Source: Coriobacteriaceae bacterium AF45-21 (lineage in GTDB: Bacteria > Actinomycetota > Coriobacteriia > Coriobacteriales > Coriobacteriaceae). From it: a stretch of 64,000 bases of DNA. Under the pieces are notes generated by a model. It ran no database searches, was not told the origin of the DNA, and saw only the letters and a program-made list of their open reading frames with translations. The DNA is taken from the NCBI GenBank assembly GCA_027682925.1, contig JAQCYU010000004.1, positions 1 to 64,000 on the forward strand, in the 5' to 3' direction. A program made the position numbers and the translations under genes. The stretch's first letter is position 1. Every line of letters begins with the position of its first letter. Shown here piece by piece: positions 31,191-49,552 of the stretch.

Positions 31191-32524
31191 TTAATCCTCC
31201 ATGCCGAGGTCGATCGTTGTGCCTTCGAACACCTTGTTAACGGTACGGACGGCGCACATCTTGCCACACATGGTGCAAGTGCCCTCGGTGGCGGCGGGAG
31301 ACTCCTCGTAGCGCTTCTTGCCCGTAACTGGGTCGAGCGCGCACTTCCACATGGCGTCCCAGTCGAGCTTGCGGCGTGCCTGGCCCATCTTGTCGTCCAT
31401 GTCGCGGGCGTGCGGCACCTTCTTGGCGATATCGGCGGCGTGTGCGGCGATCTTGGTAGCATGAGGCCATCGAGCACGTCCTGGGCGTTGGGCAGGCACA
31501 AGTGTTCGGCCGGCGTCACGTAGCACAGGAAGTCGGCACCGGAGCTGGCGGAGATAGCGCCGCCGATGGCAGCGGTGATGTGGTCGTAGCCCACGCCGAT
31601 ATCGGTCACCAGCGGCCCCAGCACATAGAACGGGGCGTTGTGGCACAGGCGCTTCTGTAGCTTCATGTTGGCGGCGATCTCGTCGAGCGCCATGTGACCC
31701 GGGCCCTCGACCATGACCTGGACGCCGGCAGCCCAAGCGCGCTTGCACAGCTTGCCCAGCTCGATCATCTCGGCAGTCTCTGTGGCGTCGTTGGAGTCGT
31801 AGAGGCAGCCCGGGCGGCAGGAGTCGCCGAGCGAAATCGTCACGTCGTACTCGTGGCAGATCTCGAGCAGCTCGTCAAAGTACTCGTAGAAGGGGTTTTC
31901 GTTGCCGGTGACCTCCATCCAGCCAAACAGCAGCGAGCCGCCGCGGCTCACGATGTTCATGAGGCGGCCGGTCTCCTTAAAGGTCTTGGTGACCGACTTG
32001 TTGATGCCGCAGTGGATGGTCATAAAGTCCACGCCGTCCTCGGCGTGCGCGCGCACGACCTCGAACAGGTCATCCTTGGTAAGCTTGACCAGCGGCTTTT
32101 CCATGTAGCCGATGGCGTCGTACATGGGGACGGTGCCCACCATGAGCGGCGTCTCGTCGATGAGCTGCTGGCGGAACTGGCGCGTCTTGCCCGAGTTGGA
32201 GAGGTCCATGATGGCGTCGGCGCCAAAGTCCTCGGCGATCTTGACCTTCTTCCATTCCTCGGCGGCATCGGCCTTGTCGCCCGAGATGCCCAAGTTCACG
32301 TTGACCTTGGTGGACAGGCCCTCACCGACGCCAAAGGCGCGCATGCCTTTTTTGATGTGCACGATGTTGGCGGGAATGGCGATGCGGCCGTCGGCCACGC
32401 GCTCGCGGATGTACTCGGGGTCGCGATGCTCGCGCTCGGCGACTTCCTTCATCTGCGGTGTGATTTGCCCGGCGCGGGCGAAGTCGATTTGCGTGACGAG
32501 CTTGGGCTCGGTCTGTGTGCTCAT
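31191..32524 (-). CDS. thiC: HMP-P synthase ThiC (1-base deletion)
   Basis: ThiC is a radical-SAM enzyme that converts aminoimidazole ribotide to HMP phosphate, the pyrimidine half of thiamin. Conserved segments include [59 protein letters not shown] and the C-terminal cluster region [11 protein letters not shown], which binds the 4Fe-4S cluster. A sense-strand G is lost near 31460 (ATGGCT read as ATGCT), after which the frame ending at 31191 continues; restored length is about 444 residues, the short anaerobe-type ThiC. GGGAG precedes the ATG at 32524. Expression is expected to be governed by the TPP riboswitch upstream. Confidence 0.95.
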
Positions 32525-32531
32525 TGGCACG

Positions 32532-32626
32532 GCTCCCTTCGTTGGCATTACCCATATCAGGTTTGCGGGTCAGGGCGGGCGCGCCCAATCTCAGCCTGCC
32601 GTCTTGTCCTGCAAGCTCCCCGTTAT
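32532..32626 (-). promoter_or_regulatory. TPP riboswitch (THI element) controlling thiC
   Basis: On the minus strand the conserved THI-box words appear in order: GGGGAGC, GGCTGAGAT, the CCCTGACCC region, AACCTGATATGGGTAAT and GCCAACGAAGGGAG. The last part overlaps the thiC ribosome-binding site, so ligand binding would most simply hide it and block translation. This is established biology for thiC leaders; no separate terminator is visible between the aptamer and the start codon. Confidence 0.93.
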
Positions 32627-32694
32627 GTCATGGGCTCAAGTATAGCCTGAATGGGTACGATTGGGCCAACGAGCGTGCCTGTGGGGAGGCGAAC

Positions 32695-39772: not shown

Positions 39773-39800
39773 TTGCGCTGTAGGCACTTTAGCGTAATAT
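39773..39800 (+). promoter_or_regulatory. Candidate argG promoter
   Basis: TTGCGC (39773-39778) and TAATAT (39795-39800) are 16 bases apart. The predicted start near 39807 gives a leader of about 375 bases before argG. Confidence 0.5.
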
Positions 39801-39903
39801 AGCGACCATCGAAAACGGAGACGGAAAAACAACCGCTTACCGAGGAAAAGGTACCGTTTACGATATTAGAATTGCGCCCGGCGGTAGGTGAAAGGAGAGG
39901 CAG

Positions 39904-39978
39904 ATGCAGTTCGTAAAGATCATCACTACTGCAGACAATGCCATCCGACGCCAGCGCGCAATTTCCCGACGACGATAA
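39904..39978 (+). CDS. Putative arginine-rich leader peptide (argG attenuator)
   Basis: A 24-codon ORF starts at ATG 39904, 5 bases after an excellent AAGGAGAGG site, and ends at TAA 39976-39978. Six of the last ten residues are arginine (RRQRAISRRR), and the final three codons before the stop are CGA CGA CGA, a codon that appears scarce in the surrounding genes, which mostly use CGC and CGT. It lies between the promoter and a terminator upstream of argG. This is the layout of ribosome-mediated attenuation: scarce Arg-tRNA would stall the ribosome at these codons. Sequence and position are directly visible; the regulatory role is inference. Confidence 0.6.
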   Translation: MQFVKIITTADNAIRRQRAISRRR

Positions 39979-39985
39979 CAATCGT

Positions 39986-40019
39986 CTCTGTCCGTATGGG
40001 GCTAAATGCCCCAACAGAG
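39986..40019 (+). promoter_or_regulatory. Hairpin directly after the leader ORF
   Basis: CTCTGT (39986-39991) pairs with ACAGAG (40014-40019), and inside it TGGGGC (39997-40002) pairs with GCCCCA (40008-40013). A smaller hairpin GACGAT-AACA-ATCGTC (39971-39986) overlaps the last Arg codons. A ribosome stalled on those codons would cover the 5' arms of both. Confidence 0.55.
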
Positions 40020-40042
40020 TCATTTTGAGGTCGTTGGGTTTT

Positions 40043-40088
40043 AGCACGACATAGACGCATGTTTCTAGGGCATGTTGTGCTGCTTTTT
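40043..40088 (+). terminator. Putative attenuator terminator before argG
   Basis: AGCACGACAT (40043-40052) pairs with ATGTTGTGCT (40072-40081), 10 bp with one G-T pair, followed by GC and five Ts. An upstream GTCGT (40030-40034) could instead pair with ACGAC of the left arm, and a 13-bp long-range pairing (40020-40032 with 40118-40130, one G-T) would enclose it. Intrinsic termination so close before argG implies read-through control. Confidence 0.65.
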
Positions 40089-40182
40089 GCTATTTAACCT
40101 GATATTGCACGGTTTTTGACCTCGAAATGACTTGCAACTGACCGATGTTCTAACTAGCTACCAAGGGCGAAAGGAAACAGCC

Positions 40183-41409
40183 ATGAGCAAGGAAAAAGTC
40201 GTTCTCGCATATTCCGGTGGTCTTGATACATCCGTATGTGTCAAGTGGCTTCAGGACGAGAAGAATCTTGATGTCGTTTGCGTCTGCGGTAACGTGGGCC
40301 AGGAGGAGACCGGCCTGGATGCCAAGAAGCAGAAGGCGCTCGACCTGGGCGTTCTGGATTGTCAGGTGCTCGACTTGCGCGACGAGTTCTCCGATGAGTT
40401 CCTGACCAAGGCCATCGCGGCCAACTCCATGTACGAGAACAAGTACCCGCTGCTCTCCGCCCTGTCCCGCCCGCTGCTCGCCAAGAAGCTCGTCGAGGTT
40501 GCTCACGAGTTTGGCGCGACCTACGTCGCCCACGGCTGCACCGGCAAAGGTAACGACCAGGTCCGTTTTGAGGCTGCCGTCAAGGCGCTCGACCCCGAGC
40601 TCAAGGTTATCGCCCCGGTTCGCGAGTGGGATCTGAAGTGCCGTCCGGACGAGGTCGCCTACGCCCACGCCCACAACGTGCCGGTTCCCGAGGGTGCCAA
40701 CGACAACCCCTATTCCATCGACGACAACCTGTGGGGTCGCGCCATTGAGTGCGGTCACCTGGAGGATCCCTGGAACGAGCCGCTCGACGACGCCTGGGTT
40801 ATGACCAAGAACCCCGAGGATACGCCCGACGCCCCGACCTACACCGAGATTGAGTTTGAGGCGGGCAAGCCCGTCGCCGTCGACGGCAAGAAGATGAAGC
40901 TCTCCGAGATCGTCATCGCTCTCAACAAGATTTCCGGCGACAATGGCTTTGGTCGCCTGGACCTGGTCGAGGACCGTCTGGTGGGCCTCAAGAGCCGCGA
41001 GTGCTATGAGGTCCCCGGCGCCCTGACGCTTATCACCGCCCACAAGGCGCTCGAGGACATTTGCGTTGAGGGCGACCTGCTCAAGGAGAAGATTAAGCTT
41101 GAGCAGGATTGGGCCACCGCCGTGTATAACGGCCAGTGGTACAGCCCGCTCAAAAACGCGCTCGATGCCTTTATGGCCGACACCCAGAAGTTCGTGACCG
41201 GCACCGTCCGTCTGAAGTTCTTTAAGGGCAACTGCCATGTCGTCGGCCGCAAGAGCCCCTTCAGCCTCTACGATTACGGCCTGGCCACCTACGACCGCGA
41301 CACCACGTTTGATGAGAAGGCCAGCGCCGGCTTTATCGAGATCGATACGCTGTCGCTCAAGACGTGGGCTAAGGTCCAGGGTCCCAGCTCCGCTGCAGCC
41401 CAGGCCTAA
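40183..41409 (+). CDS. argG: Argininosuccinate synthase
   Basis: ArgG joins citrulline and aspartate using ATP to give argininosuccinate in arginine synthesis. The N-terminal ATP loop VLAYSGGLDTSVCVKWL and later ATYVAHGCTGKGNDQVRFE are diagnostic, with SIDDNLWGRAIECG and the citrulline-binding region following. The frame is intact at 408 residues. AAAGGA precedes ATG 40183; an upstream in-frame start at 40132 is unlikely. argH follows after a 520-base gap with its own terminator, so the two genes need not share a transcript. Confidence 0.97.
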   Translation: MSKEKVVLAYSGGLDTSVCVKWLQDEKNLDVVCVCGNVGQEETGLDAKKQKALDLGVLDCQVLDLRDEFSDEFLTKAIAANSMYENKYPLLSALSRPLLAKKLVEVAHEFGATYVAHGCTGKGNDQVRFEAAVKALDPELKVIAPVREWDLKCRPDEVAYAHAHNVPVPEGANDNPYSIDDNLWGRAIECGHLEDPWNEPLDDAWVMTKNPEDTPDAPTYTEIEFEAGKPVAVDGKKMKLSEIVIALNKISGDNGFGRLDLVEDRLVGLKSRECYEVPGALTLITAHKALEDICVEGDLLKEKIKLEQDWATAVYNGQWYSPLKNALDAFMADTQKFVTGTVRLKFFKGNCHVVGRKSPFSLYDYGLATYDRDTTFDEKASAGFIEIDTLSLKTWAKVQGPSSAAAQA

Positions 41410-41562
41410 GGCTTCTCTTCCTTGGTATCCGCGCGGCCCATCCGCGTGATACATAACGGGCGCACGGGGTCCCTACCTTTCGTTATGCTTGCTGACACTT
41501 CTTAACATCGGTGGCCCCTACGTTCCGCCCGCATATATGATGCCGCATCTGCGGCTGAGTCC

Positions 41563-41597
41563 GAGCCCCGCCGGGGTTGTCCGGCGGGGCTCTTTCT
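41563..41597 (+). terminator. Terminator after argG
   Basis: A perfect 10-bp GAGCCCCGCC/GGCGGGGCTC stem (41563-41572 with 41583-41592) is followed by TTTCT. Confidence 0.8.
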
Positions 41598-41642
41598 ATC
41601 AATTTGGCGGCTCTGTGCCTATATATATGAGGAGTATCCATT

Positions 41643-41858
41643 ATGCTCAATGCTATCGCGCATGCTTTACTTGCCCTTGCGCCCGAGTTCGATGCTGCAA
41701 AGGTCGAGGACGTTCCCATGAGCCTGAGGCTGGATCGATGGTTCGCAGGGCAACATCCGGAGGGAGACGTTGGGCGCCAAGTGCATGGCGCGTCACTTCT
41801 TTGCAAATTAGCTACATGGCCCCGCGCACGGTGGGGAATGTGTAAAACTAGCGGTTGA
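41643..41858 (+). CDS. Possible small protein, 71 residues
   Basis: An ORF of 71 codons begins at ATG 41643, 8 bases after GAGGAG, and is preceded by TATATATATG, a possible -10 region. The product resembles nothing I know. Its composition (His-, Trp- and Arg-containing C-terminal half) is not typical of a conserved protein, so only the translation signal argues for it. It may be spurious, or a leader for argH 72 bases downstream. Confidence 0.25.
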   Translation: MLNAIAHALLALAPEFDAAKVEDVPMSLRLDRWFAGQHPEGDVGRQVHGASLLCKLATWPRARWGMCKTSG

Positions 41859-41929
41859 TAAATCGCTTTAGCGACAGGGCGCATTGCTTTGGGCGCTTGT
41901 TTTGGTATTTGGAGAAAGGGGACGGTTCC

Positions 41930-49181: not shown

Positions 49182-49545
49182 TGCTGAGTGGGCCAGACGG
49201 TCGCGCGATGTGCTGCTTGCAGTACGCGTGAGGAAAGTCCGGGCTCCAGAGGGCGGGATGCCGGCTAACGGCCGGGCGGAGTGATCCGACGGAAAGCGCC
49301 GCAGAAAAGAAGACTCCCACCTGCGCCGCAAGGCGTAAAGGGAAAAGCTGAAACGGTGGTGTAAGAGACCACCAGCGTCGTGGCAACATGGCGGCTTGGC
49401 AAGCCCCATCCGGAGCAAGCGCGAATAGGAACGCTATGGGCCGGCCCGGTCCGCGTTCGGGTAGCGTGCGTGGAGCTGCACGGTAACGTGCAGACAAGAT
49501 AAATGACCGTTCACGACAGAACCCGGCTTACAAGCCCACTCAGCT
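49182..49545 (+). ncRNA. rnpB: RNase P RNA, bacterial type A
   Basis: RNase P RNA is the ribozyme that matures tRNA 5' ends. The P1 helix is formed by GCTGAGTGGGC (49183-49193) and GCCCACTCAGC (49534-49544). Between them are the conserved CR-I word GAGGAAAGTCCGGGCTCC, the CR-II/III region with AGGGTGAAA-like GGGAAAAGCTGAAACGGTG, and the closing ACAGAACCCGGCTTACA (CR-V). The length of about 364 bases fits type A. Confidence 0.95.
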
Positions 49546-49552
49546 TTCTTGT

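Follow-up and report, generated by a model that had tools for sequence, protein, structure and literature searches.

The argG gene in this 64,000-nucleotide stretch of a Coriobacteriaceae genome (the whole stretch is referred to as the window) is preceded by a 5' leader which, in the reading that we consider rather probable, is a ribosome-mediated attenuator that responds to the supply of arginyl-tRNA and has its switch strand in the last codons of a short open reading frame (ORF). Put in general terms, a short arginine-rich peptide gene probably lets the progress of the ribosome report arginine supply and switch argG. Judged from the sequence, the locus shows what attenuators are recognized by, that is, a putatively translatable short ORF with codons for the product amino acid of the pathway, situated directly before a gene of that pathway. 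The original prediction had proposed an arginine attenuator at this site: the conserved ORF, its codons and the conserved RNA structure support that proposal, whereas the mechanism as it was then written, with respect to both the sensor and the terminator, lacks such support. The features on which our reading is based are collected in Table 1.

Table 1. Features of the argG leader region (positions refer to the window)
Feature	Positions	Strand	Basis or remark
Candidate sigma-70-type promoter, TTGCGC, 16 nt, TAATAT	39773..39800	+	read by eye; putative
Shine-Dalgarno region of the leader ORF, AAAGGAGAGG	39891..39900	+	sequence
Leader ORF, 24 codons, MQFVKIITTADNAIRRQRAISRRR-stop, ending CGA CGA CGA TAA	39904..39978	+	C-terminus kept in 47 further genomes
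Proposed sensor codons CGA CGC CAG CGC (RRQR), the first two above all	39946..39957	+	codon conservation, fold test
Putative switch strand (region 1), TCC CGA CGA CGA TAA	39964..39978	+	the three CGA invariant; complementary to region 3
Hairpin P1, 39971-39976 with 39981-39986, over the last codons and stop	39971..39986	+	conserved pairing
Hairpin P2, basal 39986-39991/40014-40019, apical 39998-40002/40008-40012	39986..40019	+	changes on both sides, arm-swap test
Long-range helix P4, 5' arm	40018..40032	+	predicted folds, arm-swap tests
Region 3, GTCGTTGGG, partner of 39965-39973	40030..40038	+	best of the windows tested in 41/41 leaders
P5, 5' arm, GTTGGGTT, overlapping region 3	40033..40040	+	predicted folds
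Weak terminator-like hairpin and T run	40043..40088	+	present in the window; some close relatives have lost the T run
P5, 3' arm, AACCTGAT	40096..40103	+	predicted folds
Long-range helix P4, 3' arm	40118..40132	+	predicted folds, arm-swap tests
argG (argininosuccinate synthase), presumed regulated gene	40183..41409	+	NCBIfam NF001770 and TIGR00032 above cut-off

Much of the predicted anatomy is indeed present in the sequence: the 24-codon ORF ending in RRQRAISRRR with CGA CGA CGA as its last sense codons, the two hairpins, which we locate as P1 and P2 in the raw sequence, and all of the alternative pairings then listed. The long-range helix likewise exists, with a length of 15 bp instead of the 13 bp first noted, which lie inside it. 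Absent from the original prediction was the pairing of CCCGACGAC (39965-39973) with GTCGTTGGG (40030-40038), that is, of region 1 with region 3, which we denote P13. The argG start is the ATG at 40183, and its position behind the leader is conserved; argH follows argG after a gap of ~520 bases, both genes being confirmed by family models (the gap, positions 41410-41929 of the forward strand, was covered by the window-wide Rfam scan only). A consensus scan listed no promoter upstream of the leader; a stretch resembling the candidate promoter, CACTTTAGCGTATAGTAGCGACC, recurs in the leaders L040 and L043. Within positions 39780-40200 no Rfam family matched the leader beyond a sub-threshold hit to mir-310 (40059-40130, forward strand; 25.6 bits versus a cut-off of 48 bits), which we take to be due to chance, and the leader is not assigned to the T-box or any other known RNA family. 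Elsewhere, the window contains a TPP riboswitch (32516-32632, reverse strand), with a score just above the gathering threshold, and a class A RNase P RNA (49185-49546, forward strand).

The same leader is found upstream of argG in 58 relatives and in further members of the genus, and the peptide end, RR(Q/R)RAISRRR followed by the stop codon, is almost invariant. Codons were compared in 24 cluster representatives drawn from 28 leaders, the downstream leaders being at most 80% identical to the first members of other clusters. Codons CGA1, CGC2, CGA8, CGA9 and CGA10 of the peptide end are unchanged in all 24 representatives, and codon 4 specifies Arg in each of them; codon 3 specifies Q in 20 and R in four. 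Ala (23/24), Ile (24/24) and Ser (22/24) are kept with several synonymous codons. Synonymous variation is seen in the codons for these three residues and in the fourth codon, and none in CGA8-10. CGA accounts for 25 of the 565 Arg codons in 25 hand-picked ORFs of the window, and the chance of encountering at least four CGA among six Arg codons is ~5e-5, a value uncorrected for the choice of this particular ORF. Conservation of the ORF and its Arg codons across relatives, by which the original prediction was to be judged, is thus observed, with three terminal CGA codons in 24 of 24 clusters.

A covariance model of the leader end and hairpins, run over 395 genomes of the order, yielded 47 strong matches (E below 1e-12), at most one per genome; all 47 sequences were read, and each lies directly before argG. 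The next match (E ~9e-4) looks like noise. Strong matches are present in 39 of the 43 genomes of Collinsella, the genus of the window (39 of the 40 that bear argG), and in all eight genomes of two sister genera (5/5 of g24 and 3/3 of g25). Three of the Collinsella genomes without the leader, G020, G023 and G027, are also without an argG match (G023 and G027 being 87% and 72% complete, respectively), and in a fourth, G025 (L064), argG is present with neither leader nor ARG-box-like site. That the leader is shared by other arginine genes was rejected, since no second strong match was obtained in any of the 395 genomes under filters by which weak matches may be missed. A scan for the leader pattern in one genome per species (84,980 genomes) returned 42 stretches, all of them titled Collinsella, Enorma, Coriobacteriaceae or Candidatus Limicola. 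Divergent leaders, in which the switch pairing is weaker, end with RICALPRRR in G212 and G213 of genus g22 (without an ARG-box-like site) and with HAMLRRR in G217. At the G217 locus (L118), the argG match begins at residue 97, its start apparently missing, and yet the upstream RRR-ending leader persists. As judged by these sequence comparisons, the leader ORF is real and conserved far beyond chance.

The last codons and stop codon, CGACGACGAUAA, have a complement 40-82 nt beyond the stop. In each of 41 distinct leaders, 15 of which are close relatives of the window, region 1 pairs better with region 3 than with every control window tested (9 to 26 windows per leader, located further downstream, with the P1/P2 part not among them), the win being narrow in L023 (-11.2 vs. 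-10.3). Length and place of the pairing vary by lineage: it is CCCGACGAC:GTCGTTGGG in the window, CCCGACG:CGTCGGG in L017-L020, TCTCGACGA:TCGTCGAGG in leaders with the Ser codon TCT (L021, L027 and L062), and GACGACGATAA:TTGTCGTCGTT in g24 (L096 and L097). Modeled in this manner, the terminal CGA CGA CGA and the stop codon look like a switch strand that would be masked by a ribosome finishing the leader.

Fold energy alone is weak evidence for structure in the leader (z-score -1.70, with 8 of 200 shuffles folding as well). When 23 sequences were aligned, 89.8% of the cells of the P1/P2 structure turned out to be paired and 25 cells showed changes on both sides; none of 500 shuffles scored as high for paired cells, both-side cells or the covariation score, and 34 and 111 of them did so for the measures counting pairs and types. 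Of the two hairpins for which compensatory pairs had been sought, P2 carries changes on both sides and P1 none: 96.4% of the P1 cells are paired in the same sequences, and this hairpin, conserved but nearly invariant, is uninformative with regard to covariation. In an arm-swap test, own arms were compared with foreign ones among the 24 representatives (5000 trials), a within-clade version providing a partial correction for relatedness. Uncorrected, swaps as good as the own arms were found in 0/5000 trials each for P2, P4 and P13, in 63 for P5/terminator and in 829 for P1; in this uncorrected comparison, 8 of the 24 representatives have a P4 arm that does not exceed the mean of the foreign ones. 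Within clades, the numbers are 0/5000 for P2, 5 for P4, 207 for P13 (marginal, with relatedness only partly removed) and 823 for P5/terminator (not significant). The comparisons suggest that mutually exclusive structures, P13 on the one hand and P4/P5 or a terminator on the other, are conserved across species, with P13 being marginal and P5 unsupported within clades.

We suggest that the switch may operate as follows. When arginine is short, the ribosome would stall at the first Arg codons of the leader and, with its front edge ~12 nt past the start of the A-site codon, would leave CGACGACGAUAA free; this strand could then capture region 3, so that P13 would form together with P2. With ample arginine, the ribosome would reach the stop codon and mask the switch strand, and region 3 would be left to join P4/P5 or, in some relatives, a strong terminator, by which argG expression would be lowered. 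For the last step in the window, termination, RNA decay and translation may all be considered, the fold test opposing the direction required for termination. The role of sensor, which had been assigned to the terminal CGA CGA CGA, would rather pass to the upstream RR codons, which are better placed: in the fold test, the switch strand becomes free with stalls at codons 1-3 only.

Simulations of ribosome masking show to what extent the RNA could follow this scheme. In full leaders with region 1 free, P13 attains at least 5 expected pairs in 19 of 41, and nine of these 19 also attain at least 8 pairs of P4 once the ribosome is at the stop; the remaining 22 leaders stay under 5 pairs of P13. The full-length window RNA, when folded at equilibrium, shows no P13 (0.0), and P4 is present whatever the ribosome state; among transcripts ending at the U tract, 12 of 13, the window included, attain 5 or more pairs of P13 in one or more unmasked states. 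In four leaders (L021, L026, L027 and L062), region 3 doubles as the 5' arm of a strong terminator. The probability of the L026 terminator is 0.01 or below with a stall at codon 1 or 2 versus 0.95 with the ribosome at the stop, and that of the L062 terminator is 0.14 with a codon-2 stall, 0.70 with a codon-1 stall and 0.90 at the stop; a codon-4 stall leaves the terminator high in all four (0.95 in L026 and 0.78 in L062). L021 exhibits no switch, and in L027 P13 forms only in the absence of any ribosome, with the terminator unchanged when a ribosome is on the leader. No competition with P13 is seen for the terminators of L024, L030 and L034, and those of L002 and L003 do not respond to ribosome position. 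The window terminator, with 0.83 for a codon-1 stall and 0.19 for a ribosome at the stop, runs opposite to the model, as do those of L008 and L063; for this reason we commit ourselves to control by the leader peptide, with the switch strand in the last codons, and not to a particular output step in the window.

The terminator of the original prediction, ending at 40088, is weak and cannot be regarded as firm. Its stem (40043-40050/40074-40081) encloses a long imperfect loop and is followed by the T run at 40084-40088; it was found neither by a consensus scan (confined to loops of 3-8) nor by a second scan for hairpins with a T run, and 4 of 15 distinct close relatives (L001, L007, L057 and L060) have an interrupted T run. 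In the close relatives L002, L004, L006 and L014, the second scan detected a TTTTT preceded by a hairpin of ~-14 kcal/mol. Clear intrinsic terminators occur in other Collinsella lineages, in just 9 of the 41 distinct leaders, and a universal intrinsic terminator is thus rejected; weaker or longer-looped ones are listed in others, among them L002, L003, L004, L006, L014, L040 and L061.

As an alternative, control might act via P4 on the translation of argG or the decay of its RNA, termination playing no part. Lineages that lack a clear terminator are likewise predicted to form P4, and a parallel exists in Salmonella orf34-speF, where pausing at Arg codons is reported to result in a change of RNA structure and decay by RNase G (PMC6386406). 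A replacement of P13 or P2 by P4 opens the Shine-Dalgarno (SD) region of argG in 6 of 41 leaders; it does so, however, by at least 0.15 with the ribosome at the stop, against the proposed direction, and in the other 35 a codon-1 stall and a ribosome at the stop differ in SD accessibility by less than 0.15 (0.86 and 0.97, respectively, in the window). Occlusion of the SD region by GGGCTCRTCC, although attractive in some species, was rejected on the basis of the swap test, which is not significant (488/5000). Taken together, we regard control by P4 without termination as unlikely.

A stall on the terminal CGA CGA CGA, which would open P1/P2 and prevent the terminator at 40088, appears improbable to us: these codons are rare and invariant, P1 overlaps them, and the value of 0.19 for the window terminator with the ribosome at the stop agrees with it, but masking CGA8-CGA10 leaves that terminator at 0.82-0.84, a ribosome at this place favors the terminator in L026 and L062, and some close relatives lack an intact T run. 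Nascent-chain arrest is known for TnaC, SpeFL and the fungal arginine attenuator peptide, and it is conceivable, at a comparably low level of probability, that the peptide RR(Q/R)RAISRRR brings about a ribosome stall at the stop codon, with arginine as its possible ligand. Such an arrest might account for the Ala-Ile-Ser segment, which is kept through synonymous changes and is unexplained by the switch model, and it is consistent with the divergent leaders ending in ALPRRR and AMLRRR. The argG leaders of a second family, however, have RRQxRR followed by variable ends, so that the C-terminus is not general, and an arginine-induced arrest would need to lower argG. That the ORF arose by chance between conserved flanks and has no regulatory role is, finally, very improbable: only its small size would speak for it, and against it stand a peptide end that is nearly invariant across 24 clusters and strong matches that occur at most once per genome and always at argG. 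Ribosome-mediated attenuation with a switch strand in the last codons thus remains our preferred reading.

The second family with such leaders, f5, is probably Atopobiaceae. Of 30 argG loci fetched, 25 were inspected, the genomes having been chosen partly for weak model matches and not at random; 18 have an RRQxRR leader, one has a variant (L175) and six have none. These leaders (L161-L181 and L188) are built differently from those of Collinsella, many with strong terminators. In 13 of 17 leaders tested (two of 19 being without a hairpin by the pattern, and the L164 hairpin being without a T run), the pairing of the leader end with the hairpin before argG beats that with all control windows, and compensating changes are found in it, e.g., CAATATCG with CGATATTG in L166. 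Eight leaders share the hairpin GCCCCGCGACGTCGGGGC: its terminator probability is 0.03 or below with a stall at R1-R6 and, in seven of the eight, at 0.50-0.80 with the ribosome at the stop, which is the classical response; it is also low without any ribosome. L171 likewise shows the classical response, the terminator is kept in every ribosome state in L161, L162, L180, L181 and L188, and the response of L169 is reversed. These masking values leave out L164 and L175, for which none were obtained, as well as L166 and L168, with hairpins other than those in the pairing test. As modeled, the f5 leaders would fit the same switch logic as the Collinsella leaders.

The leaders of the trp, his, leu and ilv operons are the classical ribosome-mediated attenuators, with which the argG leader shares a short ORF rich in codons for the product amino acid, alternative RNA structures and a cognate biosynthetic gene and, in family f5, often an intrinsic terminator next to the gene. 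It differs from them in that (i) the amino acid is arginine, (ii) the putative Collinsella switch strand consists of the last codons of the ORF itself and the stop, and (iii) in Collinsella, region 3 serves as an arm of a terminator in some lineages only, and the long-range helix P4 encloses the terminator site. The fungal arginine attenuator peptide, which acts on the carbamoyl-phosphate synthetase mRNA, likewise combines a short ORF with a response to arginine, but is eukaryotic and works by nascent-chain arrest. SpeFL is the E. coli counterpart of the Salmonella orf34 leader. Going by the part of the publication available, orf34-speF has in common with the argG leader the Arg codons in the leader ORF, a hairpin just past the stop and the use of ribosome position as a readout of arginine; it differs in its unrelated peptide, its target (ornithine decarboxylase instead of argG) and its use of Rho, masking of the ribosome-binding site and RNase G (PMC6386406). 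A comparison by eye with the conserved SpeFL/orf34 core given there revealed no homology of the leader peptides (PMC6386406).

Leader peptides before amino-acid genes have been described in the same phylum: in the portion available of their survey of Actinobacteria, Seliverstov et al. (2005) report leader elements for Trp, Cys and branched-chain amino acids, and no conserved RNA structures before arginine operons, with no Coriobacteriia among the genomes listed there (PMC1262725). Histidine attenuators are described in Firmicutes in the accessible sections of PMC9413887, and those of PMC8632094 contain no arginine leader like that of argG. Among the open-access titles listed, none reports an arginine attenuator of argG, most subscription papers being outside this scope. 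It is tempting to speculate, though we would give this little credence as a whole, that the leader represents a new class of arginine-sensing attenuators of Coriobacteria without an ArgR-box-like site at argG, in which the terminal Arg codons would serve as both code and antiterminator strand and RRxRAISRRR would also act as an arrest peptide, so that charged tRNA and nascent chain would both be read. The natural variation among the leaders provides a ready set of tests for the importance of each pairing.

In bacteria, the ArgR repressor frequently governs the synthesis of arginine. The original prediction had named ArgR repression as the common mechanism, and the ARG-box-like sites of leaderless sister genera are in line with this. 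In genera g21 and g22, 8 of 11 leaderless argG loci possess TATGCA-N6-YGCATA with no more than one mismatch, a further two match it with two mismatches and one has no such site, whereas none of the 41 distinct leader-bearing regions, over 235-400 nt above the Arg codons, has such a site with at most one mismatch (five do with two), a comparison that is descriptive since the motif was read from the same leaderless loci. The two modes of control have arginine genes as targets in common, ArgR being a DNA-binding repressor and the leader-bearing argG being devoid of a site at this threshold. Loss of ArgR as the reason for the leader was rejected, as an ArgR-family gene is still encoded in 34 of the 35 Collinsella genomes examined. 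A task performed by a repressor protein in many bacteria appears to be carried out at argG by a leader peptide in a lineage of common gut bacteria, and the leader at argG versus the ArgR-box-like site in sister genera makes a swap of repressor and attenuator traceable along the family tree. In family f5, three of the six leaderless argG loci have, as read by eye, an ArgR-like coding sequence directly upstream.
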